A stretch of 64,000 nt of DNA, taken from assembly GCA_963854835.1 (NCBI GenBank), contig OY978525.1:72122628-72186627 (forward strand), written 5' to 3'. Below the pieces are notes generated by a model. It saw nothing but the letters and a program-made list of their open reading frames with translations. It was not told the origin of the DNA and ran no database searches. The first letter of the stretch is position 1. The number at the start of each line of letters is the position of its first letter. Shown in pieces: positions 32,361 through 60,896 of this stretch. The translations under genes and the position numbers were made by a program. The DNA is from Megamerina dolium (taxonomy: Eukaryota; Arthropoda; Insecta; Diptera; Megamerinidae).

Positions 32361-32559
32361 CGTGGTCAGTTCGTAGAATAAATGACTAACCGTATAAGTA
32401 TTTATGGAAATACGTTAAACATCTTTAGAATGTCTAACACGTTTTTTTTTACAATTTTAGGATTTATAACACGTTTTTTGAACATTTTTAAAAATGTTAA
32501 AAATTTTAATATTTTTATAATAATACAATAATAATATAATATAATATTTTTATATTTTT

Positions 32560-32780
32560 TATTTAATATATTAATATGTTTAAAATATTATTTTTGAAAC
32601 ATATTTAAATCTTTTATTTTTTTTTTTTTAATTTTTATAACAAATAATGATAAAAATGTTGGAATAATAATATTCTAGGGGCATGTCGTGTAAAAAGTTC
32701 TTTGTGGATTTGAACCCACAAAATCAGTGCTTGTTAATGGTACTCAACTATTAACCAATTGAGCTAAATATTCACTTCGT
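32560..32780 (-). repeat. Polinton left terminal inverted repeat
   Basis: Complementary to 47018-47205 with about 80-90% match in the tRNA-like part and weaker match outward. The outermost bases are not defined. Confidence 0.65.
32695..32773 (-). tRNA. tRNA-like gene, left Polinton end
   Basis: Minus strand: box A TAGCTCAATTGG, box B GGTTCAAATCC and a T5 run directly after the acceptor-like 3' arm (AGAACTTTTT). About 93% like the copy at 47019-47097. The acceptor stem is weak here (GAATATT against AGAACTT) and box B has one change from consensus. D-, anticodon-like (CATT/AATG around AACAAGC-type loop) and T-arms can be drawn. No standard U33, so it may not be a decoding tRNA. It could be a tRNA relic, a SINE-like head or a viral-type tRNA. 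Confidence 0.6.
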
Positions 32781-33080
32781 GAATGGTTGACAAAGTCAGA
32801 ATAATCTCATATCTTCAACACATTTGAAGTTGTGTACTTTGTTGAAGTAAACAACGTTACTGAATATTAGGCTAAAAATAGATCACCGGTGCGCGATTTA
32901 TGTTATCAACCAATTGCTTCACAGTTATGTTTTTTGCTGATCTAAAAAAAATTATTCAACAATTTACTTAACGGAACCTTACTGACGTTGATTTATATAT
33001 GTAAAAAAAAATTTCGCGTCGGTCGGTGCGAGTATTTATGTTTAAAATAAAAATTTTACTTTATAAAATGTAATACATAA
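32770..33080. other. Polinton subterminal non-coding DNA
   Basis: Contains the hairpin ATTCACTTCGTGAAT at 32770-32784 beside the tRNA-like gene and AACTTCAAAT/ATTTGAAGTT-like short inverted sequence near 32815-32835. No gene seen. Confidence 0.4.
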
Positions 33081-33352
33081 ATAAAATAAAAAATATGTGG
33101 CATAATTATTTTAGCCGGTTCCGAACGGCAGAACTCTTGCGACATCACTTTTTCATAGCTTTGTCACAGAGTTCTTTTAGAAGCTTTTTCATGGCAAATT
33201 GTTACTGTCGGAAAAATTGCCAATTGCTTGCCGACAGGTGGGTACCGTTCGAAAGAAAAAATGTTTTCGATATTAAATTTGTTATGCATCAGCCGACCTA
33301 CGACCTACAGATCAGAAGGCCAACACACTAACCACTGAGCTACAGCACCCAC
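33080..33352 (-). mobile_element. tRNA-derived SINE, copy 3 (internal deletion)
   Basis: Reverse orientation, with head at 33352 and tail at 33080-33095. It is flanked by AATGTAATACATA at 33067-33079 and 33353-33365 (13-bp perfect target duplication). About 80 bp of the 3' body (the CTTTAAGCCCC region) are missing. Inserted in the Polinton end region. Confidence 0.92.
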
Positions 33353-33489
33353 AATGTAATACATATTATAAATATAAAAAATGTCTTTTATTCCATTGAT
33401 TGAAAAAATGTACTCAAACTTTTTTTATATCGTCCATCATTGCTTGCTTTCCTTTATCAATAACAATAAAACTAAATTAATATTTCCAT

Positions 33490-34010
33490 GATTCAATACA
33501 CATACTTTTAAATAAATTAAAATCAATATCACCCCAGTGGTCATCTAAAATATGGTTGGTATTAGTTTTTTCTTGCTTAAATAAAATTATAAAATTAGCA
33601 TTATCTCTAATTAATTGCTTAGGTATTTTGGAATATGTTTGAAACAATTAAAAATAAGAAATATTATTGTGTCTACCATAAGCAAAATAATTGGCAATTT
33701 TATTTTGTGGTTCAGTAGAAATATCATAAAATATTATTACAGTATATGGTTCAATATATTCAGGAGGTGATAAAGATTCAATTGATAAACATTTAATATC
33801 TTTTGGTTTCAAGTCATTGATAGTACAAACTTTATTAAATTGGTTAATAAAGGTTTTCAAGTATTTATATTTTTCTTGATCACATGTTTTTGAACAAATA
33901 ATAATATTGGAATGATTTATCTTTAATAAGATATTTAATAATACATTTATTTATCTTTCCGCAATTACTTGGCCCACAAATAATTTATCTGAAAATATTT
34001 GGAAATAATT
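33490..34010 (-). pseudogene. Polinton DNA-packaging ATPase (FtsK/HerA, A32-like)
   Basis: Minus strand. A Walker A region reads FVGPSNCGKIN near 33985-33950 (usual GPSNCGKT). After frameshifts, 33860-33648 holds NDLKPKDIKCLSIESLSPPE and VIIFYDIST (Walker B, Asp present) then IANYFAYGRHNNIS. In the next frame (33640-33490) come YSKIPKQLIRDNANFIILFK and DDHWGDIDFNLFK, the conserved C-terminus. Such ATPases pump DNA into the capsid. Nearly the whole domain is represented, but at least two frame breaks exist. Confident family call. Confidence 0.8.
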
Positions 34011-34119
34011 CATTCAATCTTTCTATTGGTTTATTAGAATCAAAATTTTTAATATTTAATTAGTTTTTAATAACTAAGACCTTAGTTCGAATATTACTCA
34101 TTTATTATATAAAAATATT

Positions 34120-34290
34120 TTTCCATTTGGAGACGGTTTGATTTTATCAAACATGTCTCTGAAAGAGACCGTGAACGAAGTTCACATATTTCAAAAGGAA
34201 ATGGTTCATAAAGTAAACATGTCTCCTTGGGAGACGGTTCGCGAAGTCAACCATTAGCGAAGTCAAATATTTGATGAAGTCAAACATGCA
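34120..34290. repeat. Array of short hairpins and MGAGAC/GAAGT repeats in Polinton
   Basis: Repeats of the type CATGTCTC...GGGAGACGGTT, GTTCACATATTTC, AAAGGAAATGG and GCGAAGTCAA alternate. Each contains small inverted repeats. The same style occurs at 46280-46345 and 46935-47020. No coding sense. Confidence 0.55.
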
Positions 34291-34299
34291 TTACTTGGT

Positions 34300-34910
34300 T
34301 AGTTAATGAATTATATGAATACGAAACATCACAAATAATTAGACAATGTACAATTGTATTAGCTGGGAATTTTTTCGTCCATTTAAACTCAATTTTAATA
34401 TCAATAGAAGCCTCTTTAATTACTTCATTTTGTTTAGAAGTATCAATGCAAATTATTGGATATTCTTTTAAAAATGTATCATAATTCTTTAAAATCTAGA
34501 AACATGTTTAAATTTTGTGTTATTTGAAATATTTTTATTAATCTCATGTTCAACTTCAATAGAAAATTTAACATGATAACATTATTTCATAAATTTTAAT
34601 AGGAACGTTATGATCATTTAAACAACTATCAATAATTAAACAATTTGAATCATTTGATCTAATTAATTCTAATTTTGATTAATTCTGAAAATAAAATTGT
34701 TTTAATCATCAAAAAATCCCATTAAAATGTATAATGGAATACTAACAGAAAAATGGCCTTTTTTTTATTAAAAACGTTACCTTTATTTACAATTTACCAC
34801 CCCGCATTATTTAATGCAAGATCATAATAAAATGATGCTAATCCTTTAATTGTTGTTGTTAAACCAGGATTTTCTATTTACATTTATTTATTTTCTATTT
34901 ATTTATAACT
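34300..34910 (-). pseudogene. Probable Polinton major capsid protein remnant
   Basis: Minus strand, mixed frames: GLASFYYDLALNNAGW near 34840, then KGHFSVSIPLYILMGFFDD near 34765-34705, followed by SNDSNCLIIDSCLNDHNVP and IKIYEIM (34660-34590), and EFKWTKKFPANTIVHCLII near 34390-34350. The F.V.IPL..LMGFF.D block and its place beside the packaging ATPase resemble the double-jelly-roll capsid protein of Polintons. Short indels in A/T runs break it repeatedly. Moderate call; it could be another virion protein. Confidence 0.42.
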
Positions 34911-35139
34911 TTTTGATTCAATCTCTTTCTCAGTAAAAACTTCAGCAATATATTTCATTATATTTTTAGTCCTCGGATTGTATTCATATTTATCTATTGT
35001 TTCTAACATAAATAATTGTTTCTAACATCGATTGTTTCTAACATAATTTTGGACAATTGTGGAATTTACGCAATCTTCAGATTTATATTATTTGTAGATA
35101 TAAACATAAATAAGAAAATAAAAATTTATTAGGAGAAAA

Positions 35140-35400
35140 CTATACATTTTTTTAGAGGTAAATTACCTATAGATTTGCTTAATCTTGAAATAGATCAAGA
35201 ATTCAAAAATATCAACTCTAATAAAGTAAGAAGTGTTAATGAAGAACACAGAAGTAGCTTTTCAGGATCTCTCATAGATGGGTATAATAATAGTTAATAT
35301 TCTAAAGAAATTAAAAAATTTGAAAAAGAGATAGAAAAACTAAATATTGATTCAAAATTAATCACTGATGAAAATCGTATAGAACATAAGCTTAATTAAT
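35140..35400 (+). pseudogene. Unrecognised Polinton ORF remnant
   Basis: Plus strand reads FFRGKLPIDLLNLEIDQEFK, NINSNKVRSVNEEHRSSFSG and SLIDGYNNS before a stop, then KKFEKEIEKLNIDSKLIT. Charged and helix-prone. I do not recognise the family. Its place between capsid-like and phospholipase-like remnants suggests a structural or DNA-binding Polinton protein. Confidence 0.35.
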
Positions 35401-35479
35401 AATTTACAAAATAAAATATCAAGTTTAAAAAAGTTAAATTTTAAAAGTTAAAATATATTAATTTAATAAGTAGTTAACT

Positions 35480-35845
35480 AGTGGGTGCCGTAGCTCAGTG
35501 GTTAGTGTGTTGGCCTTCTGATCTGTAGGTCGTGGTCCAATTCCCGGCTGATGCATAACATATTTAATATCGAAAAGATTTTTCTTTTGAACGGTACCCA
35601 CCTGTCGGCAAGCAATTGGCAATTCTTCCGACAGTAATAACTTACCATGAAAAAGCTTCTAAAAGAACTCTGTGACAAAGCTCAGAAAAAGTAATGTCAC
35701 AAGGGTTCTGCCGTTCGGAACCGGCTAAAATAAGTAGGTCTCTTCTAATACTGTCCAAAATTTAGCACGCATGACAGTAATGGTAGAGAAGCTCGGCCAA
35801 TGAGCCCTTCGGGGCTTTAAGTTCCAAATATTAATCTTTTTTTTT
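35480..35845 (+). mobile_element. tRNA-derived SINE, copy 4
   Basis: Full-length head to tail. Flanked by TAGTTAACT at 35471-35479 and 35846-35854. Inserted between Polinton gene remnants. Confidence 0.92.
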
Positions 35846-35924
35846 TAGTTAACTTTTTTATTTAAATAAATGGTTCGATATTATGGTAAATAAACAGTTT
35901 TTTAAATCATCTTCGATTTGAATT

Positions 35925-36245
35925 ACATAGTCCTGGTTATTTAGGACCAGGTACTAATATACATTTGAAAGAAGAACAGGGTATTCAACCAATTAATAAA
36001 TTAGATGAAGCTGCTATAGAACACGACATTGTATATTCAAAAAGTAAAAATAATAAAAAAAACATGAAGCTGATGAGATTTTGGAAAATAAAGCATGGTC
36101 AAGAGTTTTAGCCAAAGATGCTTGTTTATCAGAAAAAGTAAATGGTTATTTAGCAACAAATGCAATGAAATTCAAAAGGAAAATGGGAATGGGAATTAAT
36201 AATCAAAATAATATTAATCAAAATGAAATGGAAGGTATATTAAAT
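35925..36245 (+). pseudogene. Polinton protein with parvovirus-VP1u-like phospholipase A2 fold
   Basis: The plus strand has HSPGYLGPGTNIHLKEEQ (Ca-binding YxGPG loop), PINKLDEAAIEHDIVYSKSK (catalytic His-Asp pair in EHDIVY) and, after a +1 shift at the A-run near 36060, HEADEILENKAWSRVLAKD and NGYLATNAMKFKRKMGMGI. This order (YLGPG, D.AA..HD..Y, H.AD..L..KAW.RV.A.D) is that of the virion-associated phospholipase domain, which helps parvoviruses cross endosomal membranes. Similar domains occur in Polinton-like elements. Frameshifted, so non-functional as is. Confidence 0.7.
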
Positions 36246-36534
36246 ATCCAATATTTCTAAATGAAAATCAACAAAAACAAATTTATGATGCAATGAAAAA
36301 TAAAAGAAATATAACTATAAAATTAGAACCAATTCATTTACAAAGAACAAAAGAAAATCTAATGAATGAAACATATTTACCACTAACTGGAAAACAAATT
36401 AAATCCACCAAAAAGAATGGGAACTTTAATACTATTTTTATTTTAAAATTACCCAAATCTTAATTGCAAAGATTTAATAATGAAAAGATTGGTGGGTTTT
36501 TACCAGTATTATTACCACTTATTCCAATGCAATT
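36246..36534 (+). pseudogene. Polinton minor-capsid-like remnant
   Basis: FLNENQQKQIYDAMKNKRN, ITIKLEPIHLQRTKENLMNE, YLPLTGKQIKSTKKNG and, past a stop, EKIGGFLPVLLPLIPMQF. A short basic protein ending in a Gly/Leu/Pro hydrophobic GGFLP-type segment often follows the phospholipase-like gene in Polintons. It is cut at 36535 by a hairpin and gypsy sequence. Confidence 0.45.
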
Positions 36535-36566
36535 CTGTGCAATTCCGTATTGACGGAATTGCACAG
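36535..36566. repeat. Perfect 14-bp hairpin at Polinton-gypsy junction
   Basis: CTGTGCAATTCCGT, loop ATTG, ACGGAATTGCACAG. It lies exactly where Polinton sequence passes into the gypsy gag fragment. Confidence 0.9.
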
Positions 36567-36966
36567 ACCGACCGACGATGCTTATAACTTGGTGCTAAGT
36601 AAGAAATTCGCTAACATAGAAGAATTGTATACACTTCTGCGAAACACATATTTGAAGCCCGTTCGCCTGGAATCGGTCACATACCAAATACAAGAAGCAC
36701 GCCAACTACCTCAGGAAGATATAAGTGTTTTTGCGAGGAGATTAAGTGATTTAACGTCCACGGCGATACAGTGTATTAAGAATATATACGGTGGGATCGG
36801 GGACCAAGCGTTGTTAAAAGAGCTAGAGGAATATGCGAGGACATCTTTTATATCAGGCCTTCAAGACCCATTGTTAAAAACTCATATGCTAGGTAAGACG
36901 GGCACGTTAGAAAAATTAGTAGAGGAGGCCGTAAATACGGGTATTTTGCTGGAAAGAGGACAATGA
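36550..36966 (+). pseudogene. Ty3/gypsy gag, capsid part
   Basis: An open frame of 138 codons: VLSKKFANIEELYTLLRNTY, RQLPQEDISVFARRLSDLT, SFISGLQDPLLKTHMLGK and LEKLVEEAVNTGI, a Retrotrans_gag-like helical capsid. The start codon lies in the junction hairpin and is unlikely to be original; the N-terminus is missing. A stop at 36964 separates it from the zinc-knuckle part by 15 bp, so a single change may have split one gag gene. Confidence 0.75.
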
Positions 36967-36981
36967 CTCCATCAGTTTAAT

Positions 36982-37458
36982 ATGGGAGCACTATATTCAA
37001 ACGACGATCACCAGACTGAGGCCAGTAATACAGTGGCATTTCACCAGAACAGAAATGACAAGATGCCATTCGGAATGAACAAATACCAAAATAATAAGGT
37101 AAGACCCCAAAATAGCCAAAGGAAAGTTCCTACCTGCTCCTTCTGCGACAAAAAAGGGCACTCCAGAGACGACTGTTTTAAGAGAAAAAACATGCCCTAT
37201 TGCATAAAGTGTAAAAAATACGGACATGAGTTCAATTTGTCATGCACACCTTTTAGCAACTACAGGTCACAAGGAAAAGGCAATCAAACATCTGCACCTA
37301 CTAAGGGAGGTCAAGAAAGCAAAGGCCCTAATTGCGCAAATTCGGAGACCAAATGTTTTTTCTGTAAGAAGCCGGGACACAGGATCGCCGACTGTTATAA
37401 ACGCAAAGAATCGGAAAAAACCCAGGGAAATTACGGGGGGGCCAGGTACGGCCAATAA
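36982..37458 (+). pseudogene. Ty3/gypsy gag, nucleocapsid with zinc knuckles
   Basis: Contains CSFCDKKGHSRDDC, CIKCKKYGHEFNLSC and CFFCKKPGHRIADC, three CCHC-type zinc knuckles in a Lys/Arg/Gln/Asn-rich protein. Continuous with the capsid part apart from one stop. The nucleocapsid packages element RNA. Confidence 0.85.
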
Positions 37459-37499
37459 ACTGGGAACCCCAAAATTTTGCTAAAAGTAGGCCAGTTGAA

Positions 37500-38290
37500 A
37501 TGGAAGGTGTCAGTTATGCGTCCATAGAGATTGTTGACACACACTCCAAGTTAGATAGCAAGATGGCGGAAGTTGGTAGTCAAGCGTCCAGGGGGATTGT
37601 TGAACCATATTTTCCATCCAGTAATAACAAACATGGCTACTCTTTGGGAGTCTCTGATGTAGATGATGTGTTCATTGAGTTTCCGTGTGAGGAAGCACAA
37701 AATGGAAAACTCATTTTACTTGTAGATTCTGGGGCAGATACCAGTTTAATAAAGTGATCAGTAATTAATGAATCTGTTAGCAAAAAGCGACATTTAAGGA
37801 AAAATCTTAGTGGTGCATTCGGAGTATTTGTCACCACATTAGGGTTAATAGCAGTCCAACATGAGAGGACGAAATATTTGGTTTTAGAACTACACTTAAT
37901 CTCTGAAGAGAGAGGGATACCTGCTGATGGTATCCTAGGTAGAGACAATTTATGGAACCGATCGGTTATAAATACTATTAAAAAGAAGCTGATTTTCTTC
38001 GGTGAACGAAAACAGCATTTGATGACTTTACCTCTCAAACCGTTGAACGAGGGTAATAGAATACTACACACCAGTGAGATTGTAGTACCTGGGAGAACTG
38101 TACTACAAGGTAGTACAGTAGTACAAGGTAGTACAGTAGTACAGAGGTAGTCCCCATGAAAGTAAATACAAATTTCGAAACAATTATAGCAGAGAAACAG
38201 GAAGTATCTCCTGGAATATATTTAGGGGAGACATTGGGCAGTGTGACGGACAACACAGTTTTTGTCCCAATTCTCAATACGAATATAGAT
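37500..38290 (+). pseudogene. Gypsy aspartic protease and downstream linker
   Basis: LILLVDSGADTSLIK at 37710-37757 carries the active-site DSGA. After a stop, HEFxLELHLISEERGIPADGI-like and ILGRDNLWN (37930-37965) give the flap and GRD/W end. Then RTVLQGSTVVQGSTVVQ comes from an 18-bp tandem repeat (38098-38147), followed by NTNFETIIAEKQEVSPGIYL (38165-38225), typical of the PR-RT linker in gypsy elements. RT is absent; Polinton sequence resumes near 38290. No LTR on either side. Confidence 0.75.
38098..38147. repeat. 18-bp tandem repeat (about 2.7 copies)
   Basis: GTAGTACAAGGTAGTACA-type units in the gypsy PR-RT linker. In frame, adding VVQGST. Confidence 0.8.
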
Positions 38291-38555
38291 TCATATATTG
38301 TAAATAATAAGATTAAAATTAATATAATTAAATTTAATCATTTAGAACACGAAGAATACGACACGGCTGATAAAATAAATAACATTTATTATATAAAGCT
38401 TATAGTGATAAAAAGGCTAATGTTAAATTACTAGAAGAAATAATTCGTCATAATTAGAAGAACAAAATGTAAAAGGTGGTAATGGATTACTTCTTAAAAA
38501 ATCTGGTAATGGTCTACTACTTAAAAAAAATTGATTTTGGATTGATTCCTATTAA
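38291..38555 (+). other. Polinton AT-rich coding remnant
   Basis: A run encoding GGNGLLLKKSGNGLLLKKN near 38476-38532 (two repeats) precedes the protease. Otherwise unrecognised. Confidence 0.35.
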
Positions 38556-38850
38556 ACTATTAAGTAATTATGATTTTTAAAAATATGCTAGAAAATTCAA
38601 TATTCCAAATTTTGGAGGTGTTTTTATGAAATATAGGTTACCAAAAAAGATAAAAGAAATTGAATGTGGAATAATAAATTTAGATAATAATGATGGTAAT
38701 GGTACTCATTGGGTAGCATATACAAATAATAATTATGTTGTATATTATGATTCATTTGCTTTAAATAAAATACCTATATTAGTTGAAAAATATTTTAAAA
38801 CTAATGAATATACAATTATCTTTAATAATAATATTGACCAAGAAATATAA
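38556..38850 (+). pseudogene. Polinton adenain-like cysteine protease, 3'-truncated
   Basis: KYARKFNIPNFGGVFMKYRL leads into LPKKIKEIECGIINLDNNDG, then GTHWVAYTNNNYVVYYDSFA (catalytic His in GTHWVAY, acidic partner in YYDSF) and an EYTIIFNNN end. The Cys-containing NCGH..C segment is lost at 38850, where the LOA element begins. This enzyme family processes capsid proteins in adenoviruses and Polintons. Confident family call, dead copy. Confidence 0.82.
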
Positions 38851-39960
38851 ACACCGGTTCTGCAAGAGCCTCTTGCATGGCAGATCCGCTTCTTGCCAGT
38901 TCGTCGGCTTTTTCGTTTCCATCTATGTTCCGGTGTCCTAAGACCCAGATTAATGAAACGTTGTGCCCTTCGCTGAGTGTATTGAGACTCCTTCTACTTT
39001 GTTCCACTAGGGAGGAGGAAATAAATGCTGAGTTCAAGGCCTGAATTGCAGCTTGGCTGTCCGATAGTATAGCTATGTTGAGCTTGAATCTGAAGGCTCC
39101 GACTACCGCTGCACATGCTAACCTTTGTATACTGCTAAGTTTGTTAATGGTGTAGGCCTTATCCAAAACCTTCCACCAAACAACCGAGCCGTACGATAAA
39201 ATTGGACGTACAGCCGTTTTGTACATCCATAAAGTAAGTTTTGGTTGCAGACCCCATTTCCTTCCAATTACTCTTTTGCAAGTATAGAGGGCAATACAAC
39301 CCTTCTTTACCCGGTTTTCAGTATTCAACCTCCAGCTAAGCTTGGAGTCCAAAATAACCCCCAAGTATTTAGCACTAGAAGAAAGATTTAAGGTTTGATG
39401 GTTGAATTAAGCCAAGTCAAATTTGGGTATTTTGATTCTGTTGGTGAAAAGCATCAGTTCTGTTTTATCCGGCTTCAACCTTAGGCCACACTTGATAGTC
39501 CAAGAGCTGAGCTCGTCTAACGCCCATTGCGTGATCCCACTGATGGTGCCAGGACACAGCCCTGACACAATTAATACCATATCATCGGTATACGCCACCG
39601 CTATGACACCCCTTCTATTCAGTTTTATTAGGATGTTGCTTATTACGCATAGCCAAAGAAGAGGGGAAATCACCCCCCTTGTGGGGTTACCCTTTTGACT
39701 AGCTTTGTTATTGAGATATTACCCATGTTAGCACTTATGACCCTAGCCACTAGCATAGAAATAATCCAATCTGTAACACAGTTGTCCACTCCTATTTCTG
39801 TCAACGCCCGTTTGTTAGATTCTGTGCTAACATTGTTGAATGCACCCTAATGTCCAAGAAGCTAGCCATGGTGTATTGTTTGTGGTCCAGAAATCCCTTA
39901 ATTGTTTGCACTACCTCATGGAGAGCCGTTTCTGTCGACTTCCCCTTTCGGTATGCATAC
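38851..39960 (-). pseudogene. LOA-type RT and RNase H
   Basis: Minus strand: KRVTPQGG near 39695, ISPLLWLCVISNILIKLNRR, VIAVAYTDDMVLIVSG (catalytic box YTDD instead of YADD), LKPDKTELMLFTNR, then GVILDSKLSWRLNTENRVKK and VRPILSYGSVVWW (thumb). RNase H follows in frame: LNIAILSDSQAAIQAL (catalytic Asp) and LIWVLGHRNIDGNEKADELA (late His/Asp). The first RNase H Asp and Glu region is deleted (jump from AAVVGAFR to FKLNIAILSD). Breaks near 39400 and 39700. Confidence 0.85.
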
Positions 39961-40950
39961 TACTCGGTCATACTACTTCTGCTTTCGTATTGATTGCATC
40001 CTGAAAAATGAGTGTTTATGAGTAGTTCTAGGGATTCTTCTGCCGTTTCCGCCCAAGTTCCATCTTGCTTCCTAATCCAAGAAGCACTCGAATGGTCTTT
40101 GGATAGGATACGGTTCAGTCTCGCTGAATCTTTGGTAGATTCAATGGGCGTGCCAGCCCTTCTTTTTGGCGCTCCTAATAGCTTTCTTGTACAGCACCGG
40201 CTTTGTTTGTACAATTGCCAATTTCTAGTGGAGTAGCTGATGTTGTAATCTGCTCTTGCTTTCTTCCTTAGTTCTGAGAGTTCTTGGCTCCACCAAGGGG
40301 GGAAGGTTCTTTTGCTATATTTCAGTGGGCACGACATTTTAAAGGCCTTACCGAAAGCTTTTTCCAATTTTTCGACCCTACTGTTTAGTGACTCAATGGA
40401 TGTTATTCTATGAATGGGAGCCTCTCCTATTTTATTTCTAACTAAATTTTCAAACCACGCCCAGTTAGTTCTATGGGGATTACGGTGTGGCAAGGGTGGG
40501 TCCACCTTAAGATCCAAATCGTAGAGTATCCATCTATGCTCCGAGAAAAAATTTTCGCTGAAGACTCTCCAATTAGAGGTTAGCGATAGTCTGCTAACCT
40601 CTTCAGGCGTCGCAGGTTTTTCGTGTGCCATGTATACTGATGCGACCCGTAGTGTGACGCCGTCAGCTACTAGGTCTGCAACCATTACATCCTTTGAACT
40701 GTCCAATGGGATTAGTAAAATATTTAAGTGTTTTTTTTTTTTTTAGCTATAGTACATGATCTAGGCCTACCTTGGATCCGTTTATAGAGTACATTGTAGA
40801 TTTCCCTGGAAATCCTTTGATCTCGGTGCCCCGCACCCAGGGTTCCTGGACAATGGCTATATCTACGTCTTCCTCTACCAGGAAGATGGCAAGGTTGTCC
40901 GTAGCAGCTCGAGAATGCTGCAAGTTAATTTGGACAACCTTGATGACCAT
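39960..40950 (-). pseudogene. LOA-type endonuclease start and linker, catalytic core deleted (left)
   Basis: KVVQINLQHSRAATDNLAIF then DIAIVQEPWVRGTEIKGFPG (first endonuclease strands with catalytic Glu), a poly-A/T run at 40732-40744 with a frame break, VTLRVASVYMAHEKPATPEE, then LTSNWRVFSENFFSEHRWIL joins directly to the linker. The GDxN and SDH-type catalytic residues expected between SNW and VFS are absent, implying a deletion of roughly 100 codons. The linker has FPPWWSQELSELRKKARADY and SWIRKQDGTWAETAEESLEL, typical of I/LOA elements. Confidence 0.8.
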
Positions 40951-41244
40951 AGTTAGACGTCATTTGTTTCGGTGATGTCATCTAGCTGTACCCTTCCAAC
41001 AGCTCTACGGCCCCATCGGCTATATTCTACTGCTCTCCCTCCGGGTTCGCAGAACGGAATATTTTTTTTTGGCATTCCGCATGGCAAACCAAAGTTTATT
41101 TTCCGCTTTTTCTAGCGGTTCCAGGGTCTCTTCTGTAATGAGCAGAAGGAACGACGAACTATTATTTTTCGAAGCCTCCACTTTGGTGACTGACCAGTCA
41201 GTCATCGGAATAGCGCGATTGTGTACCTGTAGGTATTGATTCAG

Positions 41245-41466
41245 CTAGTTGCCATCAAACTCCATGATTGGTATCCATATACTCGGCCTGGGCCGGCGAG
41301 GTATCTCGCTGGATGGGATGGTCTTGAGCCTCAAGCCTTGGATTCTGGCAACCACGCCGTTAAGGAATGCTAAAGAGTCCTGATCGCCGCATTTGATGAT
41401 CCTATAACCGCGGACAACCTCCGCTGAGTCGAAACGTAGTGGCTCACCCTCTGGGTTTGCCATCAC
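41245..41466 (-). pseudogene. LOA ORF1 C-terminal part (DUF4780-like), left
   Basis: FDSAEVVRGYRIIKCGDQDS, LAFLNGVVARIQGLRLKTIP and IPRRPRPSIWIPIMEF. The pattern (a GYRII..CGD..S start and P.IW.P end) matches DUF4780-like ORF1 domains. Identical peptide on the right arm at 43550-43771. Confidence 0.7.
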
Positions 41467-41821
41467 ATGATCGACGACGATTCGAGACAGACGTGCAAAG
41501 ATTTCGCCCTACTTGTCCAATTTGGAAACCCTAACAAACTGAACTGCTAGATCACTTCTCTAAGCGTGGAGGTGATCACAAAAGTTATCTCACTTTGAGG
41601 AGATTTGTTACATCTGTCATCGATCAATGTTCGTTCCGAGATCTCCAATCAACATTCCACATGCAATACAACATTGGTCATTCCTCCTCAAGGGCTCCTT
41701 TTCACTAGTGTGAACGTTAACCTCCCACTTAAATTTCCCACTTTTCCTGTTGGTGTATCAACGCACATACGTGCATAGGAATTTTAATTACTTTTAAGAT
41801 TAGTATAAGTTATATGTGGTT

Positions 41822-42180
41822 GTGGGTGCCGTAGCTCAGTGGTTAGTGTGTTATTCTGATCTGTAGGTCGTGGGTACAATCCCTGACTGCAGCATAACAA
41901 ATTTCATATCGAAAAGATTTTTCTTTCGAACGGTACCCACCCGTCGGCAAGCAATTGGCAATTCTTCCGACAGTAAAAATTTGCCATGAAAAAACTTCTA
42001 AAAGAACTATGTGACAAAGCTATGAAAAAGTGATGTCGCAAGAGTTCTGCCATTCGGATCCAGCTAAAATAAGTAGGTCTCTCCTAATACTGTCCAAAAT
42101 TTAACACACACACCAGTGATGGAGGACAAGCTCGCCCAAAGAGCCCTTCGGGGCTTTAAGTGCCACACATTTATTTTATT
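41822..42180 (+). mobile_element. tRNA-derived SINE, copy 5 (left arm)
   Basis: Head at 41823, tail at 42172-42180; a short deletion in the head ('GTGTTATTCTGATC', missing GGCCT). Mirror copy at 42841-43193 has the same deletion, so both descend from one insertion. It sits in BEL 3' sequence. Confidence 0.9.
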
Positions 42181-42299
42181 ATTTGTTTATTATACTGTAT
42201 TTTTATTTTAATTTTAATTTATTTCTTCCCACTCCCTTCATATCGGGTTAGGTTCCGTCTCTTTTGCAGTATTCCTGCATGGGGATCGGAATGTCTACG

Positions 42300-42724
42300 G
42301 TAGTTGGATGTACAGCTGTTAGCGACGGTGACTGTCAACACAAAACACTTCTTTTTCACCTTGATATATATATTTAAACAATGTTTAACGCTTAATTCAA
42401 ATTCTTGTTTAAAATTAAATCTATTTAGTATAATTATCGGGAATCGAGATATGGGAAATGGGGTTTTTGTTTTATTTTAAATTTAAACTTAATATTTCTT
42501 TTATAAAGATCGCGTACTGCTTTTACGGAGTTGATAAACAATAAATAAAGGTAATAAAACCAGAAAGTGAAGAGATTAAGTAAAAGAAAAGAGAGTATGG
42601 GAGTAAGAGAGAGAGAGAGAGAGATAGAGAGAATTAGAGCGAAAAATGGCGGGAGAAATTGAACTACACTAGGGAAGCGTACTTTATTCGGGCAGTGCGC
42701 GACACACGTGTTCTGGCGTAGACA
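42300..42724 (-). repeat. BEL LTR at the centre of the inverted repeat
   Basis: Minus strand from TGTCTACGCCAGAACACG (42724) to about 42310. Shares CAGTGCGCGACACACGT, GAGAGTATGGGAGT, TACGGAGTTGAT and GCGTACTGC with the complete BEL LTRs, but is diverged. The adjoining GGGGATCGGAA (minus) is its polypurine tract. Its first 9 bases, TGTCTACG plus one, also end the left arm. Confidence 0.8.
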
Positions 42725-42840
42725 TTCCGATCCCCATGCAGGAATACTGCAAAAGAGACGGAACCTAACCCGATATGAAGGGAGTGGGAAGAAATAAATT
42801 AAAATTAAAATAAAAATACAGTATAATAAACAAATAATAA

Positions 42841-43193
42841 AATAAATGTGTGGCACTTAAAGCCCCGAAGGGCTCTTTGGGCGAGCTTGTCCTCCATCAC
42901 TGGTGTGTGTGTTAAATTTTGGACAGTATTAGGAGAGACCTACTTATTTTAGCTGGATCCGAATGGCAGAACTCTTGCGACATCACTTTTTCATAGCTTT
43001 GTCACATAGTTCTTTTAGAAGCTTTTTCATGGCAAATTTTTACTGTCGGAAGAATTGCCAATTGCTTGCCGACGGGTGGGTACCTTTTGAAAGAAAAATC
43101 TTTTCGATATGAAATTTGTTATGCTGCAGTCAGGGATTGTACCCACGACCTACAGATCAGAATAACACACTAACCACTGAGCTACGGCACCCA
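42841..43193 (-). mobile_element. tRNA-derived SINE, copy 6 (right arm)
   Basis: Mirror image of copy 5. Inserted into the BEL 3' untranslated region: flanking CATATAACTTATACTAATCT is continuous with 47835-47855 in the complete element. Confidence 0.9.
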
Positions 43194-43419
43194 CAACCAC
43201 ATATAACTTATACTAATCTTAAAAGTAATTAAAATTCCTATGCACGTATGTGCGTTGATACACCATCAGGAAAAGTGGGAAATTTAAGTGGGAGGTTAAC
43301 ATTCACACTAGTGAAAAAGAGCCCTTGAGGAGGGATGACCAATGTTGTATTGCATGTGGAATGTTGATTGGAGATCTCGGAACGAACATTGATCGATGAC
43401 AGATGTAACAAATCTCCTC

Positions 43420-45191
43420 AAAGTGAGATAACTTTTGTGATCACCTCCACGCTTAGAGAAGTGATCTAGCAGTTCAGTTTGTTAGGGTTTCCAAATTGGA
43501 CAAGTAGGGCGAAATCTTTGCACGTCTGTCTCGAATCGTCGTCGATCATGTGATGGCAAACCCAGAGGGTGAGCCACTACGTTTCGACTCAGCGGAGGTT
43601 GTCCGCGGTTATAGGATCATCAAATGCGGCGATCAGGACTCTTTAGCATTCCTTAACGGCGTGGTTGCCAGAATCCAAGGCTTGAGGCTCAAGACCATCC
43701 CATCCAGCGAGATACCTCGCCGGCCCAGGCCGAGTATATGGATACCAATCATGGAGTTTGATGGCAACTAGCTGAATCAATACCTACAGGTACACAATCG
43801 CGCTATTCCGATGACTGACTGGTCAGTCACCAAAGTGGAGGCTTCGAAAAATAATAGTTCGTCGTTCCTTCTGCTCATTACAGAAGAGACCCTGGAACCG
43901 CTAGAAAAAGCGGAAAATAAACTTTGGTTTGCCATGCGGAATGCCAAACAAAAAAATGACGTCTAACTATGGTCATCAAGGTTGTCCAAATTAACTTGCA
44001 GCATTCTCGAGCTGCTACGGACAACCTTGCCATCTTCCTGGTAGAGGAAGACGTAGATATAGCCATTGTCCAGGAACCCTGGGTGCGGGGCACCGAGATC
44101 AAAGGATTTCCAGGGAAAAACTACAATGTACTCTATAAACGGATCCAAGGTAGGCCTAGATCATGTACTATAGCTAAAAAAAAAAACACTTAAATATTTT
44201 ACTAATCCCATTGGACAGTTCAAAGGATGTAATGGTTGCAGACCTAGTAGCTGACGGCGTCACACTACGGGTTGCATCAGTATACATGGCACACGAAAAA
44301 CCTGCGACGCCTGAAGAGGTTAGCAGACTAGCGCTAACCTCTAATTGGAGAGTCTTCAGCGAAAATTTTTTCTCGGAGCATAGATGGATACTCTACGATT
44401 TGGATCTTAAGGTGGACCCACCCTTGCCACACCGTAATCAACATAGAACTAACTGGGCGTGGTTTGAAAATTTAGTTAGAAATAAAATAGGAGAGGCTCC
44501 CATTCATAGAATAACATCCATTGAGTCACTAAACAGTAGGGTCGAAAAATTGGAAAAAGCTTTCGGTAAGGCCTTTAAAATGTCGTGCCCACTGAAATAT
44601 AGCAAAAGAACCTTCCCCCCTTGGTGGAGCCAAGAACTCTCAGAACTAAGGAAGAAAGCAAGAGCAGATTACAACATCAGCTACTCCACTAGAAATTGGC
44701 AATTGTACAAACAAAGCCGGTGCTGTACAAGAAAGCTATTAGGAGCGCCAAAAAGAAGGGCTGGCACGCCCATTGAATCTACCAAAGATTCAGCGAGACT
44801 GAACCGTATCCTATCCAAAGACCATTCGAGTGCTTCTTGGATTAGGAAGCAAGATGGAACTTGGGCGGAAACGGCAGAAGAATCCCTAGAACTACTCATA
44901 AACACTCATTTTTCAGGATGCAATCAATACGAAAGCAGAAGTAGTATGACCGAGTAGTATGCATACCGAAAGGGGAAGTCGACAGAAACGGCTCTCCATG
45001 AGGTAGTGCAAACAATTAAGGGATTTCTGGACCACAAACAATACACCATGGCTAGCTTCTTGGACATTAGGGTGCATTCAACAATGTTAGCACAGAATCT
45101 AACAAACGGGCGTTGACAGAAATAGGAGTGGACAACTGTGTTACAGATTGGATTATTTCTATGCTAGTGGCTAGGGTCATAAGTGCTAACA
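43420..45191 (+). pseudogene. LOA-type element, right copy (ORF1 end, endonuclease start, linker)
   Basis: Plus strand mirror of the left copy: ORF1 peptide 43550-43771, endonuclease start 43969-44193, linker 44211-44957 with LTSNWRVFSENFFSEHRWIL (same catalytic deletion), then RT start to 45191, where it is truncated by the mariner. The 97-bp deletion lies just before the endonuclease ATG. Same mutations as the left arm, so duplicated rather than independently inserted. Confidence 0.85.
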
Positions 45192-46180
45192 AGCCATTTT
45201 CTGACGTCTTCATACGAATCGAAGTGTTGTTCGGCGAGCGCGTGACCCATCGACGAAAACAGGGGATAGTCAGAAGGGGCCAGGTCTGGTGAATAAGCGG
45301 GATGAGGTACCACCTCTCAATTGAGTGGTTCCAAGTAGTTTTGGACCACTCGTCAAGCCATTTTCTGACGTCTTCATACGAATCGAAGTGTTGTTCGGCG
45401 AGCGCGTGACCCATCGACGAAAACAGGTGATAGTCAGAAGGGGCCAGGTCTGGTGAATAAGCGGGATGAGGTAGCACCTTCCAATTGAGTGGTTCCAAGT
45501 AGTTTTGGACCAGTTTTGACGTGTGCGATGGGAAGTTGTCGTGGAGAAAAATCACCTTCTCATGTCTTTGTTCATAGCGAGGCCTTTTTTCACCCAAAGT
45601 ACGGCGCAATTTCACTAGTTGTTGGTGGTAGCGGTGAGCATTGACAGTTTCACCAGGTTTCAACAGCCCGTAGTAGATGACACCCTACTGATCCCACCAA
45701 ACGCACAACATCGTCTTGCGTCCATAGCGATTTGGTCTTGGAGAAGAAGTTGCTGGTTGGCCGGGATCGACCCACGATTTTTTTCGTCTAGGATTCTCGA
45801 AGTATATCCACTTTTCATCGCAAGTCACCACAAGATGCAGGTCTAGCATCTTGTCTAGCAAGCAAGCTTTCGCAAGTGTTTTGGCGTCGCTCCATTGTAT
45901 TGAAATGGCTTGTTGAGTAACACCTAGCTGTTCGGTAAGTCGTCCTCATCCAAAGAGCCTGCAAATCATGGTCCTCAACTTTTCTGGGTCTATTTTCACG
46001 CTTCTTGTCACTCAAGTCAAAATGGTCTTCTTTCAACCGACGAAACCAATCTCTTCAAGTGGTTACCGATAGCGCACTGTCTCCACAAGCATTCTATGCG
46101 ACTTAGCAGCAGATGTCTTCAAATTGAAGCAAAAAAGTAGAACTTCCCGCATATGCTATCTTTCTGGCACGAAACTAAAC
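45191..46180 (-). pseudogene. Mariner transposase relic, copy 1
   Basis: Minus strand: FRRLKEDHFDLSDKKRENRP near 46036 (N-terminal DNA-binding half), DLQAL, then KLRRTLGEKRPRYEQRHEKV, IFLHDNFPSHTSKLV (second catalytic Asp in HDN), HPAYSPDLAPSDYHLFSSMG (third Asp), EQHFDSYEDVRKWLDEW. A 164-bp tandem duplication (45191-45354 and 45355-45518) repeats the last block out of frame. Frameshifts near 45800 and 45660. The C-terminus is missing at the LOA junction. Confidence 0.88.
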
Positions 46181-46279
46181 ATGATTATATGAGGAAAAAT
46201 GTATGTTGTTTTATATATATACATTGTTATTTATTTAAATAAATTTTTACATTGTATTTGTTTCGCGAATTATTTTCAA

Positions 46280-46345
46280 AATGAGGTTTCTGAAGGAAAT
46301 ACGTTCACAAAGTAAACCGTCTCCTTCGAAGACATAGAAAAATGA
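46280..46345. repeat. Polinton short-hairpin motif block
   Basis: GTTTCTGAAGGAAAT, ACGTTCACAAAGTAAACCGT and GTCTCCTTCGAAGAC: alternating small inverted repeats like those at 34120-34290 and 46935-47020. Also at 53364-53429. Confidence 0.6.
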
Positions 46346-46379
46346 ACACAGAAGAAATGGGACCAATTACAAAATAATT

Positions 46380-46889
46380 ATAGCAAAAGAATTGCAAAAA
46401 CCAATTAGAAACAAATTTGAAAGGATAAAAATAATTACATAAGTAATAAATGAATTATGGGCAGCTGATTTATTAATTATGACAACTGTTAATGTAAAAA
46501 TTAATAGAAGATATAAATATATGCTTAATGTAATATATAACTTTTTGGAAATTTGCCTTTATAGAGCCTTTAAAAAAAGATGGGAACTGAAACATTTTAA
46601 CAAAATTATTAAAAAAGCTGGTTGTGCACCAAAATTACTTCACACATATTCTGGTAAAGAATTTTTAAATAAATATTTTCAGGAAGTTTTAGATAAACAT
46701 GAGAATAAAATGTATCAATCATTTGGTGAAAAGAAATCAGCAATTGTAGAAAGATTTAATAGAATAATTAATGAAAAATTGAAACTACAAATAAATACAA
46801 CAAATACTAATTGTGTTGATGTAATTGATAAATTATTGTATGAATATAATTTTAAAGACATTCATAGAATAATTGTTATAAGGCCTTGA
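46380..46889 (+). pseudogene. Polinton retroviral-type integrase, copy 1
   Basis: Frame upstream of the ATG at 46479 already codes KELQKPIRNKFERIKII and ELWAADLLIM (first catalytic Asp in W.ADL). The open part gives RRYKYMLNVIYNFLEICLYR, KHFNKIIKKAGCAPKLLHTY, then SGKEFLNKYFQEVLDKHE, and GEKKSAIVERFNRIINEKL (catalytic Glu in VERFNR). The second Asp position reads Tyr (LHTYSGKEF where TD.GKEF is usual). A stop near 46441 separates the D1 part. Beyond 46889 it stops early, lacking the C-terminal chromodomain-like tail. Polinton integrases insert the element DNA. Confidence 0.85.
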
Positions 46890-46934
46890 AGTGAATGAAA
46901 AAAATGAACAAGAAGTTGTTAATAGGTTATGTAA

Positions 46935-47020
46935 TCAAAACCATATTTCCGAAGGAAATGGCTCACAAAGTGTACATATTTCCAAAGAAAATGGTTCACA
47001 AAGTGAACATATTTCCGAAG
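46935..47020. repeat. Hairpin array upstream of the tRNA-like gene
   Basis: Two and a half units of CATATTTCCGAAGGAAATGG plus (T)TCACAAAGTGAA(C). Each unit has two small palindromes: TTTCCGAAGGAAA and GTTCACAAAGTGAAC. The tRNA-like gene starts immediately after. Also at 54019-54104. Confidence 0.75.
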
Positions 47021-47205
47021 TTATTTAGCTCAGTTGGTTAATGGTTGAGTACCATTAACAAGCAATGATTTTGTGGGTTCGAATCCACAAAGAACTTTTT
47101 GCACGACATGCCCCTAGAATATTTATACCCTAACATTTTTATAATTATTTTTCATATTTTGCAAAAAAAAGATGTAAATATGTTTGAATAATATACTAGT
47201 GGCGT
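47018..47205 (+). repeat. Polinton right terminal inverted repeat
   Basis: Complement of the left end (32560-32773). Includes the tRNA-like gene and GCACGACATGCCCCTAGAAT. The outer limit is uncertain; a small TGGCGTG...CACGCCA inverted repeat at 47202-47221 follows. Confidence 0.65.
47019..47097 (+). tRNA. tRNA-like gene, right Polinton end, copy 1
   Basis: Box A TAGCTCAGTTGG (47026-47037) and box B GGTTCGAATCC (47076-47086) both match the pol III consensus. A T-stem of up to 7 bp (TTTGTGG/CCACAAA), a 4-bp CATT/AATG stem around a 7-nt loop AACAAGC, and a partial acceptor pairing (AAGTTAT with AGAACTT, 6 of 7). A T5 run at 47096-47100 would stop pol III. The position-33 base is A, not T, and the D-loop is long, so decoding function is doubtful. 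If read, the loop would give CAA (Leu). Transcription by pol III is plausible. Confidence 0.65.
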
Positions 47206-47271
47206 GTGGCGGCACGCCAATAGATTAATATAAACTACAAATAAAAACTTGGATCAATTGATAAGCGTATT

Positions 47272-47718
47272 TGTTTCAGCGGGGAGCAAGCGGGAATGCC
47301 GGTGGGCTTGCTGCGATGTGGTGCACTTGCCTGAATGTTGTGTTAGGGGTATGCCTGCGTCTATTGATGTGGTTGTGGTAGTGGTTAATATGAAACACAC
47401 TGATATGTCACTTTCTTTTTATTGTTCAACATGCAAGTTGTTTAACACTTTATTAAAAATGATTTAAAATTAAATATATATAGTTATGCACGGGAAGGGA
47501 AAATTCGCTCACTGCTTTAGTACGGAGTTGATCAACAATAATAGCAAAGTAAATAAACAGAAAGTGAATAGCTAAAGTTAAAGAAAAGAGAGTATGGGAG
47601 TGAGAGAAAGATAGAATGAGAACGAAAAATAGCGGGAGGAAAGAGACTTACACTAGGGTTGCTAGCCCATGCAAACTTTTTACGGGCAGTGCGCGACACA
47701 TGTCTTCTGGCGTAGACA
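47272..47718 (-). repeat. BEL 3' LTR (copy 1)
   Basis: 447 bp, TGTCTACGCC...(minus). Identical to 54356-54802 as far as read. Preceded in the element by the polypurine tract AAGGGGGGCGGAA (minus, 47719-47731). Confidence 0.9.
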
Positions 47719-47731
47719 TTCCGCCCCCCTT

Positions 47732-48650
47732 GCAGGGATACTGCAAAAGAGACGGAACCTCCACCCGAGACGAGGGGTTTTGAGGGGAAAAAAATTAAAA
47801 GGAGAAGTTAATAAGAAATCAAAATACAATATTTCATATAACTTATACTAATCTTAAATGTAATTAAAATTATCTCTAAATATTCATATGCGTATATGTT
47901 CGATGATACACCATCAGGAAAATCGGGAAATTGAAGTGGAAGGTTGACGTTCATACGAGTGAAAAGAGCCCTTTAAGAGGGATGACGCATGTTGATTGTT
48001 GAGGATGTTGATTGCAGATCTCGAAGCGAACGTTGATCGATGACAAATTGCAGCGCGGAACGGATGTTGATTGTTGAAGTGTTGATTGTAGAATGTAGAT
48101 CAATGTTGATTGGTGTGTGGATCGGGGTTGGATCACACCAACTCAGGTGAACAGATTCTCAGGGATGGTCGTAGACCAGATCATAGGGTTTGAGAAGTCA
48201 ACGTAGTTGACAAACCTCGAGCTCGTAGAGCACTTGCAGCATTAATAATTCCAGTTTGTGTGGATTGCCAGAATATGTACCGCTCGTGACATTTTTTAAA
48301 CTCAGATAATCTGCATGTCTTGGGTTCATGACTCATCTCATGAATATGTAGCAAATAATGTGAAATTAACACATGGGATTATTCATACGCATATACACTA
48401 TGCCAGTGCATAGTTCCGTTGAAGCTTCGTAGAAGTTCGGGAATTAACTCGGGCAGTTACAGTGAACTGAACAATGTGAGAGTGGGATGCGTATGACGGT
48501 CAGTATCGTTTAGTCTGACAAAACGTTGCTACATAATACGGGTGTGGCATCAGAGGCTTATATGTTGCTCAAGCCACAATCTTCAAATGGCCTTTTACGT
48601 GACAACAATTTTGGGGGGCCAGTATTAGGCGGGATCGAATGCATTGCAAT
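47732..48650 (-). other. BEL 3' untranslated region (copy 1)
   Basis: No gene recognised. Contains GTTGATTG-rich imperfect repeats (48000-48120). About 900 bp separate the ORF stop from the polypurine tract, where RT, RNase H and integrase would normally be. Confidence 0.6.
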
Positions 48651-51299: not shown

Positions 51300-51837
51300 C
51301 CTTTTAGCAATTGTAGAATTCCAGATGTAATACGGGATACAATTTGAAAACGAGAGAGCGAATTACTTGCGAATCTGGAGTTATGTTGCCTGTTCGCACA
51401 ATTTATCAAAAAATGGCAAAAATTTGCCCGGAAAGAGATTAATCCGAAAAACGTAGTCTTCCGTAGCCAAATTGAAGGTTATACTAGTGGGATAACTTAT
51501 GGAAGGTATGACCTTCAGCTTATTTTAAATTCGTATTCGATTCCGCTGAATTCCGGAATTGACGTAGGGAGATGTAATATAAATTAATTCACAGTCAATA
51601 AAATTACTGAATTATAAAGAGCCGGGGTGATATTTACGTATAGAAAACTATTATCCGATGGGTATAAAAACGTTTGGGAACCACTGTATACTACTTTCTT
51701 CAACTTGTACTGTATTATCTTGCACAAAGAACTCAATTATTTGATATTCGTCAACACTGTAGCAACTTAGGGTTGAGAGTGACTCTTTTTCACACTGGGT
51801 ATTTTTCAATAGAAAAGATAGTGTACAATTGTTATTG
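51300..51837 (-). other. BEL leader, truncated by the duplication junction
   Basis: First 538 bp of the BEL leader upstream of gag. Cut at 51837 where copy 2 of the tandem duplication begins. Confidence 0.75.
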
Positions 51838-51841
51838 TTAT

Positions 51842-52275
51842 GGGCTGGCACGCCCATTGAATCTACCAAAGATTCAGCGAGACTGAACCGTATCCTATCC
51901 AAAGACCATTCGAGTGCTTCTTGGATTAGGAAGCAAGTTGGAACTTGGGCGGAAACGGCAGAAGAATCCCTAGAACTACTCATAAACACTCATTTTTCAG
52001 GATGCAATCAATACGAAAGCAGAAGTAGTATGACCGAGTAGTATGCATACCGAAAGGGGAAGTCGACAGAAACGGCTCTCCATGAGGTAGTGCAAACAAT
52101 TAAGGGATTTCTGGACCACAAACAATACACCATGGCTAGCTTCTTGGACATTAGGGTGCATTCAACAATGTTAGCACAGAATCTAACAAACGGGCGTTGA
52201 CAGAAATAGGAGTGGACAACTGTGTTACAGATTGGATTATTTCTATGCTAGTGGCTAGGGTCATAAGTGCTAACA
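51842..52275 (+). pseudogene. LOA linker and RT start, duplicated piece
   Basis: Second copy of 44758-45191 (TPIESTKDSARLNRILSKD, SWIRKQVGTWAETAEESLEL with D-to-V at one residue). No ORF1 or endonuclease because the duplication starts inside the linker. Confidence 0.85.
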
Positions 52276-53264: not shown

Positions 53265-53463
53265 ATGATTATATGAGGAAAAATGTATGTTGTTTTATAT
53301 ATATACATTGTTATTTATTTAAATAAATTTTTACATTGTATTTGTTTCGCGAATTATTTTCAAAATGAGGTTTCTGAAGGAAATACGTTCACAAAGTAAA
53401 CCGTCTCCTTCGAAGACATAGAAAAATGAACACAGAAGAAATGGGACCAATTACAAAATAATT

Positions 53464-53973
53464 ATAGCAAAAGAATTGCAAAAACCAATTAGAAACAAAT
53501 TTGAAAGGATAAAAATAATTACATAAGTAATAAATGAATTATGGGCAGCTGATTTATTAATTATGACAACTGTTAATGTAAAAATTAATAGAAGATATAA
53601 ATATATGCTTAATGTAATATATAACTTTTTGGAAATTTGCCTTTATAGAGCCTTTAAAAAAAGATGGGAACTGAAACATTTTAACAAAATTATTAAAAAA
53701 GCTGGTTGTGCACCAAAATTACTTCACACATATTCTGGTAAAGAATTTTTAAATAAATATTTTCAGGAAGTTTTAGATAAACATGAGAATAAAATGTATC
53801 AATCATTTGGTGAAAAGAAATCAGCAATTGTAGAAAGATTTAATAGAATAATTAATGAAAAATTGAAACTACAAATAAATACAACAAATACTAATTGTGT
53901 TGATGTAATTGATAAATTATTGTATGAATATAATTTTAAAGACATTCATAGAATAATTGTTATAAGGCCTTGA
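53464..53973 (+). pseudogene. Polinton integrase, copy 2
   Basis: Duplicate of 46380-46889, identical protein including the Tyr at the second catalytic position. Confidence 0.85.
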
Positions 53974-54102
53974 AGTGAATGAAAAAAATGAACAAGAAGT
54001 TGTTAATAGGTTATGTAATCAAAACCATATTTCCGAAGGAAATGGCTCACAAAGTGTACATATTTCCAAAGAAAATGGTTCACAAAGTGAACATATTTCC
54101 GA

Positions 54103-54181
54103 AGTTATTTAGCTCAGTTGGTTAATGGTTGAGTACCATTAACAAGCAATGATTTTGTGGGTTCGAATCCACAAAGAACTT
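54103..54181 (+). tRNA. tRNA-like gene, copy 2
   Basis: Duplicate of 47019-47097 with the same hairpin array before it (54019-54104) and T5 run after it. Identical as read. Confidence 0.65.
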
Positions 54182-54355
54182 TTTGCACGACATGCCCCTA
54201 GAATATTTATACCCTAACATTTTTATAATTATTTTTCATATTTTGCAAAAAAAAGATGTAAATATGTTTGAATAATATACTAGTGGCGTGTGGCGGCACG
54301 CCAATAGATTAATATAAACTACAAATAAAAACTTGGATCAATTGATAAGCGTATT

Positions 54356-60675: not shown

Positions 60676-60768
60676 GTATTAGTTTTTTGAACATTCTAAA
60701 AAATAAAATAAATGTGTTAAAATGAAAGCACTGTTTTTGTGTTGGAATTTTTAATCAAAAATATTAAA

Positions 60769-60896
<128 letters not shown>

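Follow-up and report, generated by a model that had tools for sequence, protein, structure and literature searches.

A tRNA-like unit with RNA polymerase III-type boxes recurs inside the terminal inverted repeats of a Polinton lineage in the fly Megamerina dolium

Why should both inverted ends of a dead Polinton carry something that looks like a tRNA gene? The window analyzed here, a 64,000-nucleotide stretch of contig OY978525.1 from the fly Megamerina dolium, contains a broken Polinton in which fragments of a double jelly-roll (DJR) capsid protein, a phospholipase A2 (PLA2)-like protein and an integrase lie between inverted ends that each hold a tRNA-like unit. Searches of the assembly from which the window comes (500.5 Mb, 8 contigs) show that this unit recurs at a conserved position within the terminal inverted repeats (TIRs) of one Polinton lineage of this genome. 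That many copies have it at this one position suggests a small RNA once produced by the virus from its genome ends. Judged from its sequence, the unit has about an even chance of being an outward-facing RNA polymerase III (pol III)-type small-RNA gene that served the virus as a small accessory RNA. We rank this reading as the most likely one, followed by a passenger without function and, in third place, by a TFIIIC-type chromatin element.

Both units in the window contain TAGCTCARTTGG (A box), GGTTCRAATCC (B box) and TTTTT, and at both ends they point outward. The definitions used for matching are what we take A and B boxes to be. The order A box, B box and a run of four or more Ts (T4) is that of a type 2 pol III gene, and it is present in both units as well as in a duplicate of the right one. 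The recurring parts of the unit, when all copies are considered, are the A box, the B box, the T-run and a GC hairpin. The units in the window are located as follows:

32691..32780, minus strand: left tRNA-like unit, outward-pointing, with A box at 32766, B box at 32715 and a run of five Ts (T5).
47017..47101, plus strand: right tRNA-like unit, outward-pointing, with A box at 47026, B box at 47077 and T5.
54101..54185, plus strand: second copy of the right unit, the product of a 7,080-bp tandem duplication.

The genome was searched with the right TIR, which gave at least 42 matches, 3 of them within the window, and 36 of the 42 overlap the unit. This and the other genome totals are lower bounds, as only the best candidates were scored (for the outer TIR, the best 40 of 63). 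We fetched 36 loci, covering the 39 matches outside the window, and observed the unit in 33 of them, with the other three (L015, L035 and L041) consisting of outer TIR only. The order of inner TIR, unit and outer TIR is the same in most of the fetched loci. As in the window, there are two types of end. Specifically, among 20 inner 5-kb flanks there are 7 with an ATPase-like gene, 3 with an integrase and 10 with neither, and both of these genes read toward the unit. The amino-acid sequences of the gene pieces are 65-90% alike from copy to copy, which indicates that several lineages carry the unit and that it was not spread by one recent burst.

Sampling that started from the integrase or from the outer TIR, instead of from the unit-bearing right TIR, gave a similar picture. 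The integrase sample comprised 97 matches that reduced to 22 places once identity of at least 49% was required, neighbouring pieces were merged and the window was counted once; C1:72906941 was left out at 35% identity, although a unit adjoins it. At 10 of the 22 places the integrase is followed within 2 kb by a whole or partial unit on its own strand, and at 4 more by one at 2-7 kb, the latter links being based on strand and distance. Neither TIR nor unit was found at 5 places in the 3.7 kb that were read. The outer-TIR sample comprised at least 49 matches, merged to 36 TIR places that include the window and a tandem array counted once, with one of its three copies read. Among these places, which derive from the best 40 of 63 candidates, 28 have a whole or partial unit; six of the 28 rest on one search, with four being partial, and they include the weak match of L097 (E 6e-4). 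The initial annotation had proposed looking within the genome for Polintons with the unit at the same TIR position, and many ends do carry it there. In the contigs of IMG/VR and GTDB there was no confirmed match to the integrase piece, to an integrase alignment or to two patterns of the unit.

Where does the unit sit relative to the true ends of the element? Other copies have real termini of the form AGTAGTATG.../...CATACTACT. The exact sequence ACATACTACT is present at 11 distinct ends (13 loci, two of which repeat the same place) and other ends differ from it by 1-2 bases. These ends are of the (AGT)2/(ACT)2 Maverick type, and in the 7 measurable copies the terminus lies 374-601 bp outside the unit. 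The sequence CATGCCCCTAG, which the initial annotation had taken for the end of the element, is instead part of a palindrome internal to the TIR and was rejected as a terminus. Two copies retain both termini. In C1:75262812-75281658 the unit is present at both ends, with CTATC directly outside both termini within short CTAT repeat flanks. In C1:66465194-66528857 the bases outside the termini are CTTATC and CTTATT, which agree at 5 of 6 positions where a Polinton would have a 6-bp target-site duplication. Each terminus has a unit nearby, with 3.2 kb between the right unit and its outer TIR, so that this is probably a second copy with units at both ends besides the window. In a third inverted pair, the two stretches are separated by 35 kb, include the unit and share 97.6% identity over 1,000 bp; the left terminus of this pair was not seen.

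The window copy has been altered considerably relative to these copies. Its true termini are missing, as the terminus pattern of the related copies is absent from the window even with up to 3 mismatches allowed. Homology with other copies, assessed in 25-bp bins, runs from about 32415 to 47276, which replaces the limits of 32560-47215 first given for the relic, and a long terminal repeat (LTR) element splits the right TIR. The inverted stretches 32602-32770 and 47022-47190 are 83% complementary, with 4 substitutions between the left and right units. The TIR remnants that surround the units are:

32415..32690, minus strand: left outer TIR remnant, with the CATGCCCCTAG palindrome and CGTGTTA-rich repeats; the true terminus is missing and homology to other Polinton ends stops at about 32415.
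32781..33102, minus strand: left inner TIR or subterminal region, followed by a short interspersed nuclear element (SINE) at 33103-33353.
47102..47271, plus strand: first part of the right outer TIR, holding the CATGCCCCTAG palindrome.
60676..60770, plus strand: continuation of the right outer TIR past the LTR element, running into a TA repeat, with its end set by eye.

The LTR element occupies 47272-60675, with target-site copies GTATT on both sides and the TIR resuming at 60676. Its LTRs (47272-47718 and 60229-60675) are 98.9% alike, and it contains much of a tandem duplication in which 44758-51837 is repeated at 51842-58921 with 99.93% identity. This duplicated segment spans the integrase, the right TIR, the LTR and more, and it accounts for the presence of the right unit twice (at 47017 and at 54101). 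The duplication is either a very recent event or an assembly error.

Do the two units, then, belong to one element, or did they arrive separately? At both window ends the unit is joined directly to the CATGCCCCTAG palindrome, and this junction occurs in none of the 33 other units that were read. Because such a private junction is common to both ends, they belong to one element. The shared junction fits a history in which one TIR was copied into the other before insertion. The window holds a dead Polinton copy in which the hairpin stretch has been lost at both ends. These observations bear on the two ways in which the initial annotation thought it might be wrong, that the units are unrelated SINE insertions or that the ends come from different elements. 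Although tRNA-derived SINEs are common here and two integrase ends (L070 and L076) carry one, the right unit aligns to a SINE copy only over the A-box stretch, and the unit is found at one TIR position. Local alignment of 29 units with the SINE gave a mean score of 12.4 relative to a shuffled 99th percentile of 12.0. We rejected SINE insertion on the basis of the fixed TIR position and the lack of a shared SINE body, and different elements on the basis of the private junction, so that together these explanations retain next to no probability. The SINE head, TAGCTCAGTGGTTAG, was recorded at six positions in the window (10516, 17063, 33328, 35491, 41832 and 43170) as well as at the same two integrase ends elsewhere.

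We then consider what kind of sequence the unit is. Box counts cover an alignment of 29 units, 27 from other loci and two from the window ends, with 6 partial or diverged units left out. The A box is exact in 17, the B box in 20, both boxes in 13, and both boxes with T4 or longer in 11. Counted from the start of the A box, the B box begins 46 or 51 nt downstream. The units exist in a long form and in one that is about 5 nt shorter between the boxes. Outside the units, the same loci amount to 82,242 bases, counting both strands, and lack the exact set of A box, B box and T4; the window contains it once more, on the minus strand at 2145-2090. Since the exact set is so rare outside the units, a chance resemblance to pol III boxes is unlikely. 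This rarity also argues against a role as a replication or packaging signal, in which palindromes, hairpins and box-like motifs would act as DNA structures for protein-primed replication or packaging and the likeness to a tRNA would be incidental. The location of the unit within about 600 bp of the termini and the palindromes seen by eye in several TIRs would suit such a signal, yet we regard it as very improbable.

A GC hairpin was counted where a perfect stem of at least 6 bp, including 3 or more GC pairs, directly follows the B box, using 27 units with the window ends excluded. It is present in 14 of the 27; the mean was 1.4 and the maximum 6 in 300 mononucleotide shuffles, and 1.9 and 6, respectively, in stretches drawn at random from these loci. 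Two stem sequences unrelated to each other occupy this position, one in 11 units and the other in 3, and several copies have a further T-run behind the hairpin. A chromatin element would have no need of a hairpin and a T-run immediately behind the B box; in such an element the A and B boxes would bind TFIIIC and TFIIIB as an insulator, tether or boundary of the integrated provirus with no useful RNA being made. The subterminal place in both TIRs does fit a boundary role, and recurrence is stronger for the boxes than for any fold of the RNA; we nevertheless consider this explanation improbable.

The unit is not a true tRNA gene. The initial annotation correctly described inverted ends with an A box, a B box and T5 at each, but tRNA models do not accept either unit as a tRNA gene at their cut-offs. 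ARAGORN with normal settings finds no tRNA in either window unit, and Rfam gives the right unit a tRNA score of 21.1 bits (cut-off 29) and the left unit no tRNA match. Only when the ARAGORN score threshold is lowered to 50-70% is the right unit drawn as a tRNA and the left one as a structure whose anticodon is incomplete. The better pairing of the right unit and its Rfam score seem, by eye, to depend on its own junction, as a deletion appears to have fused integrase coding sequence to it. With neither cut-off reached and no conserved acceptor stem, the tRNA gene was rejected as a candidate, and a conserved RNA fold of the whole unit is likewise unsupported by RNAalifold.

Several observations weigh against an accessory small-RNA gene. 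As regards the RNA itself, Rfam finds no tRNA among 20 other unit loci at E values up to 5, the 5' acceptor-strand columns vary so that the acceptor stem is not conserved, and the middle hairpin drawn by RNAalifold is without clear compensatory changes. No perfect hairpin is present in 13 of the 27 units, and some of the 14 that have one are near-copies of each other (L022/L023 and L027/L034). With a T5 ahead of the hairpin, pol III would often terminate too early to transcribe it. An exact set of A box, B box and T4 survives in just 11 of 29 units, as is to be expected of dead copies, yet this is no proof of past activity. As regards distribution, the unit is absent from 3 of the 22 integrase places that do have a TIR (L070, with a SINE between, L071 and L072) and from 8 of the 36 TIR places (L015, L035, L041, L070, L094, L096, L101 and L102); several of the latter appear to be truncated immediately inward of the outer TIR. 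A second Polinton family, whose integrase is about 35% identical to that of the window, has no unit in 3.7 kb 3' (6 copies) or 4 kb 5' (5 copies) of its integrase, stretches that fall short of the TIRs. Finally, other stretches of the TIR are about as conserved as the unit, so that the unit is not uniquely constrained.

Two side observations concern these copies. L070, L071, L072 and L102 form a possible sub-lineage in which the C-terminal end of the integrase is followed by the TIR with no tRNA-like unit. The second family is young and genome-wide (e.g. C6:42369929 and C3:25104457), with at least 20 integrase frames of 309 aa and downstream frames that look capsid-like by eye.

Could the unit then be a passenger, that is, a tRNA or tRNA-derived fragment that was caught in an ancestral TIR, copied to both ends and inherited without function? 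Conservation within the TIR that is not unique to the unit would agree with this, as would TIRs that lack the unit, an acceptor strand that is not kept and a short form without the bases that would close the D stem. The extent of sequence identity speaks on the other side. Among 210 pairs of 21 loci, which were picked by their unit match, the unit is 83.8% identical relative to 77.8% in the 78 nt on each side, and in the same loci with gaps counted the values are 78.7% for the unit and 57-58% for the flanks. In addition, that two hairpins of unrelated sequence came to occupy one position suggests that the arrangement was selected for. We therefore hold the passenger to be unlikely, though a serious alternative.

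An accessory small RNA would imply the following sequence of events. One Polinton lineage would have carried a tRNA-derived, outward-directed pol III-type transcription unit inside its TIRs, from which pol III may have made a short non-coding RNA of roughly 80-120 nt. The GC hairpin would have stabilised or ended that RNA, and copying of the TIRs into each other would have kept the units at both ends alike. Its role would be comparable in kind to that of adenovirus virus-associated (VA) RNA or the tRNA-like RNAs of herpesviruses. The fuller proposal, which is a tentative one drawn from sequence comparison, is that of an animal Polinton lineage with a dedicated pol III small RNA in each TIR, present as two copies per genome that TIR copying keeps alike. 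If true, this RNA would be a terminal counterpart of the adenovirus and herpesvirus RNAs, and the switch from one 3' hairpin to an unrelated one would reflect a changed RNA target or function. The idea in the initial annotation of a conserved viral terminal or accessory element thus survives as regards recurrence at one TIR position, and it needs correction in that the unit is no proper tRNA gene and the supposed end motif is internal.

The coding fragments between the ends of the relic are:

33648..33950, minus strand: packaging-ATPase-like fragment, with a P-loop-like stretch by our own reading and recurrence next to units elsewhere.
34280..34495, minus strand: double jelly-roll capsid fragment (Pfam PF21738, 8.8e-12).
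35890..36111, plus strand: phospholipase A2-like fragment (Pfam PF08398, 4.5e-9).
38581..38850, plus strand: protease-like fragment, called adenain-like in the initial annotation, with no support in the libraries searched.
46443..46889, plus strand: integrase fragment with its C-terminal part lost and its junction with the unit read by eye.

The Pfam matches uphold the capsid-like and phospholipase-like remnants that had been named from the sequence. The integrase has a weak Pfam match of its own (rve, E 0.091), and its identity is supported by 59% identity at 99% coverage to a homologue (P0001) that bears PF00665. The ATPase-like fragment gave no family match above cut-off in Pfam and further profile searches; its packaging-ATPase label, which is our assumption, leans on the P-loop-like stretch and the recurrence noted above. 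The protease assignment found no match in Pfam, PHROGs or PDB sequences, and a 32-aa stretch of this fragment is 91% identical in the inner flank of a unit-bearing copy (L064). No protein-primed DNA polymerase B (polB) was noticed by eye among the open reading frames of the window, for which no profile search was made, and a polB-like reading frame, also read by eye, adjoins the outer TIR of a related copy (L035). The Polinton features present are a retrovirus-type integrase (fragment), a double jelly-roll capsid (fragment) and AGT/ACT TIR ends (in related copies).

Other elements are nested in the relic. Large inverted arms at 39726-42299 and 42717-45191 are about 99% identical and have reading frames like those of long interspersed nuclear elements (LINEs). 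Reading frames at 36484-38150 have a CCHC-type zinc-knuckle look by eye and are likely an inserted retroelement gag remnant. Mariner-type transposase fragments lie at 45067-45945 on the minus strand, with PF01359 within 45685-45945.

How does this unit compare with what is known? In its integrase, DJR capsid, PLA2-like fragment and long TIRs the element resembles animal Polintons/Mavericks (adintovirus-like), from which it differs by the tRNA-like unit inside both TIRs. Passages of PMC8097293 describe vertebrate Mavericks with an (AGT)2//(ACT)2 end motif and TIRs of 46-1,447 bp, and the AGTAGT...ACTACT ends of the related copies match that motif. The word 'tRNA' is absent from the main text of that paper as well as from the main text of a Drosophila DNA-virus paper with three adintoviruses (PMC8363768). 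In titles and abstract starts of the open-licence literature we found no report that combines Polinton, tRNA-like and RNA polymerase III. No tRNA-derived unit with a fixed place in the TIRs of such a Polinton lineage came up in these searches; the tRNA genes of protist relatives and the tRNA-like or pol III RNAs of viruses are already known. The non-coding genes of animal Polintons seem to be little described. A TIR-fixed pol III-type unit would provide a marker for finding and pairing degraded Polinton ends, and it would justify a search for small RNAs in live relatives.

Protist polinton-like viruses share with this lineage the presence of tRNA sequences in Polinton relatives; passages of PMC12220804 call them tRNA genes, explain them mainly by codon use and name no TIR location for them. 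The unit described here, in contrast, does not reach the cut-offs of the tRNA models, is located in the TIR and is repeated at both ends. The tRNA-derived SINEs of this genome have the A-box sequence in common with the unit, and differ from it in having another body and no fixed place in the Polintons that were looked at. In murine gammaherpesvirus 68 (MHV-68), the microRNA (miRNA) elements downstream in the tRNA-miRNA-encoded RNAs (TMERs) are hairpins. As in our unit, TMERs are tRNA-like RNA genes of a DNA virus with further RNA elements, the miRNAs, downstream; they belong to a herpesvirus, and the passages of PMC4999806 concerned name no TIR location. Termination in the Polinton unit may precede the hairpin, and the likeness to TMERs is a functional one only. 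Adenovirus VA RNA is a pol III small RNA with A and B boxes from a virus with protein-primed replication, and its genes are internal, outside the inverted terminal repeats. A unit fixed within the TIRs could connect Polintons with the pol III RNAs of adenoviruses.

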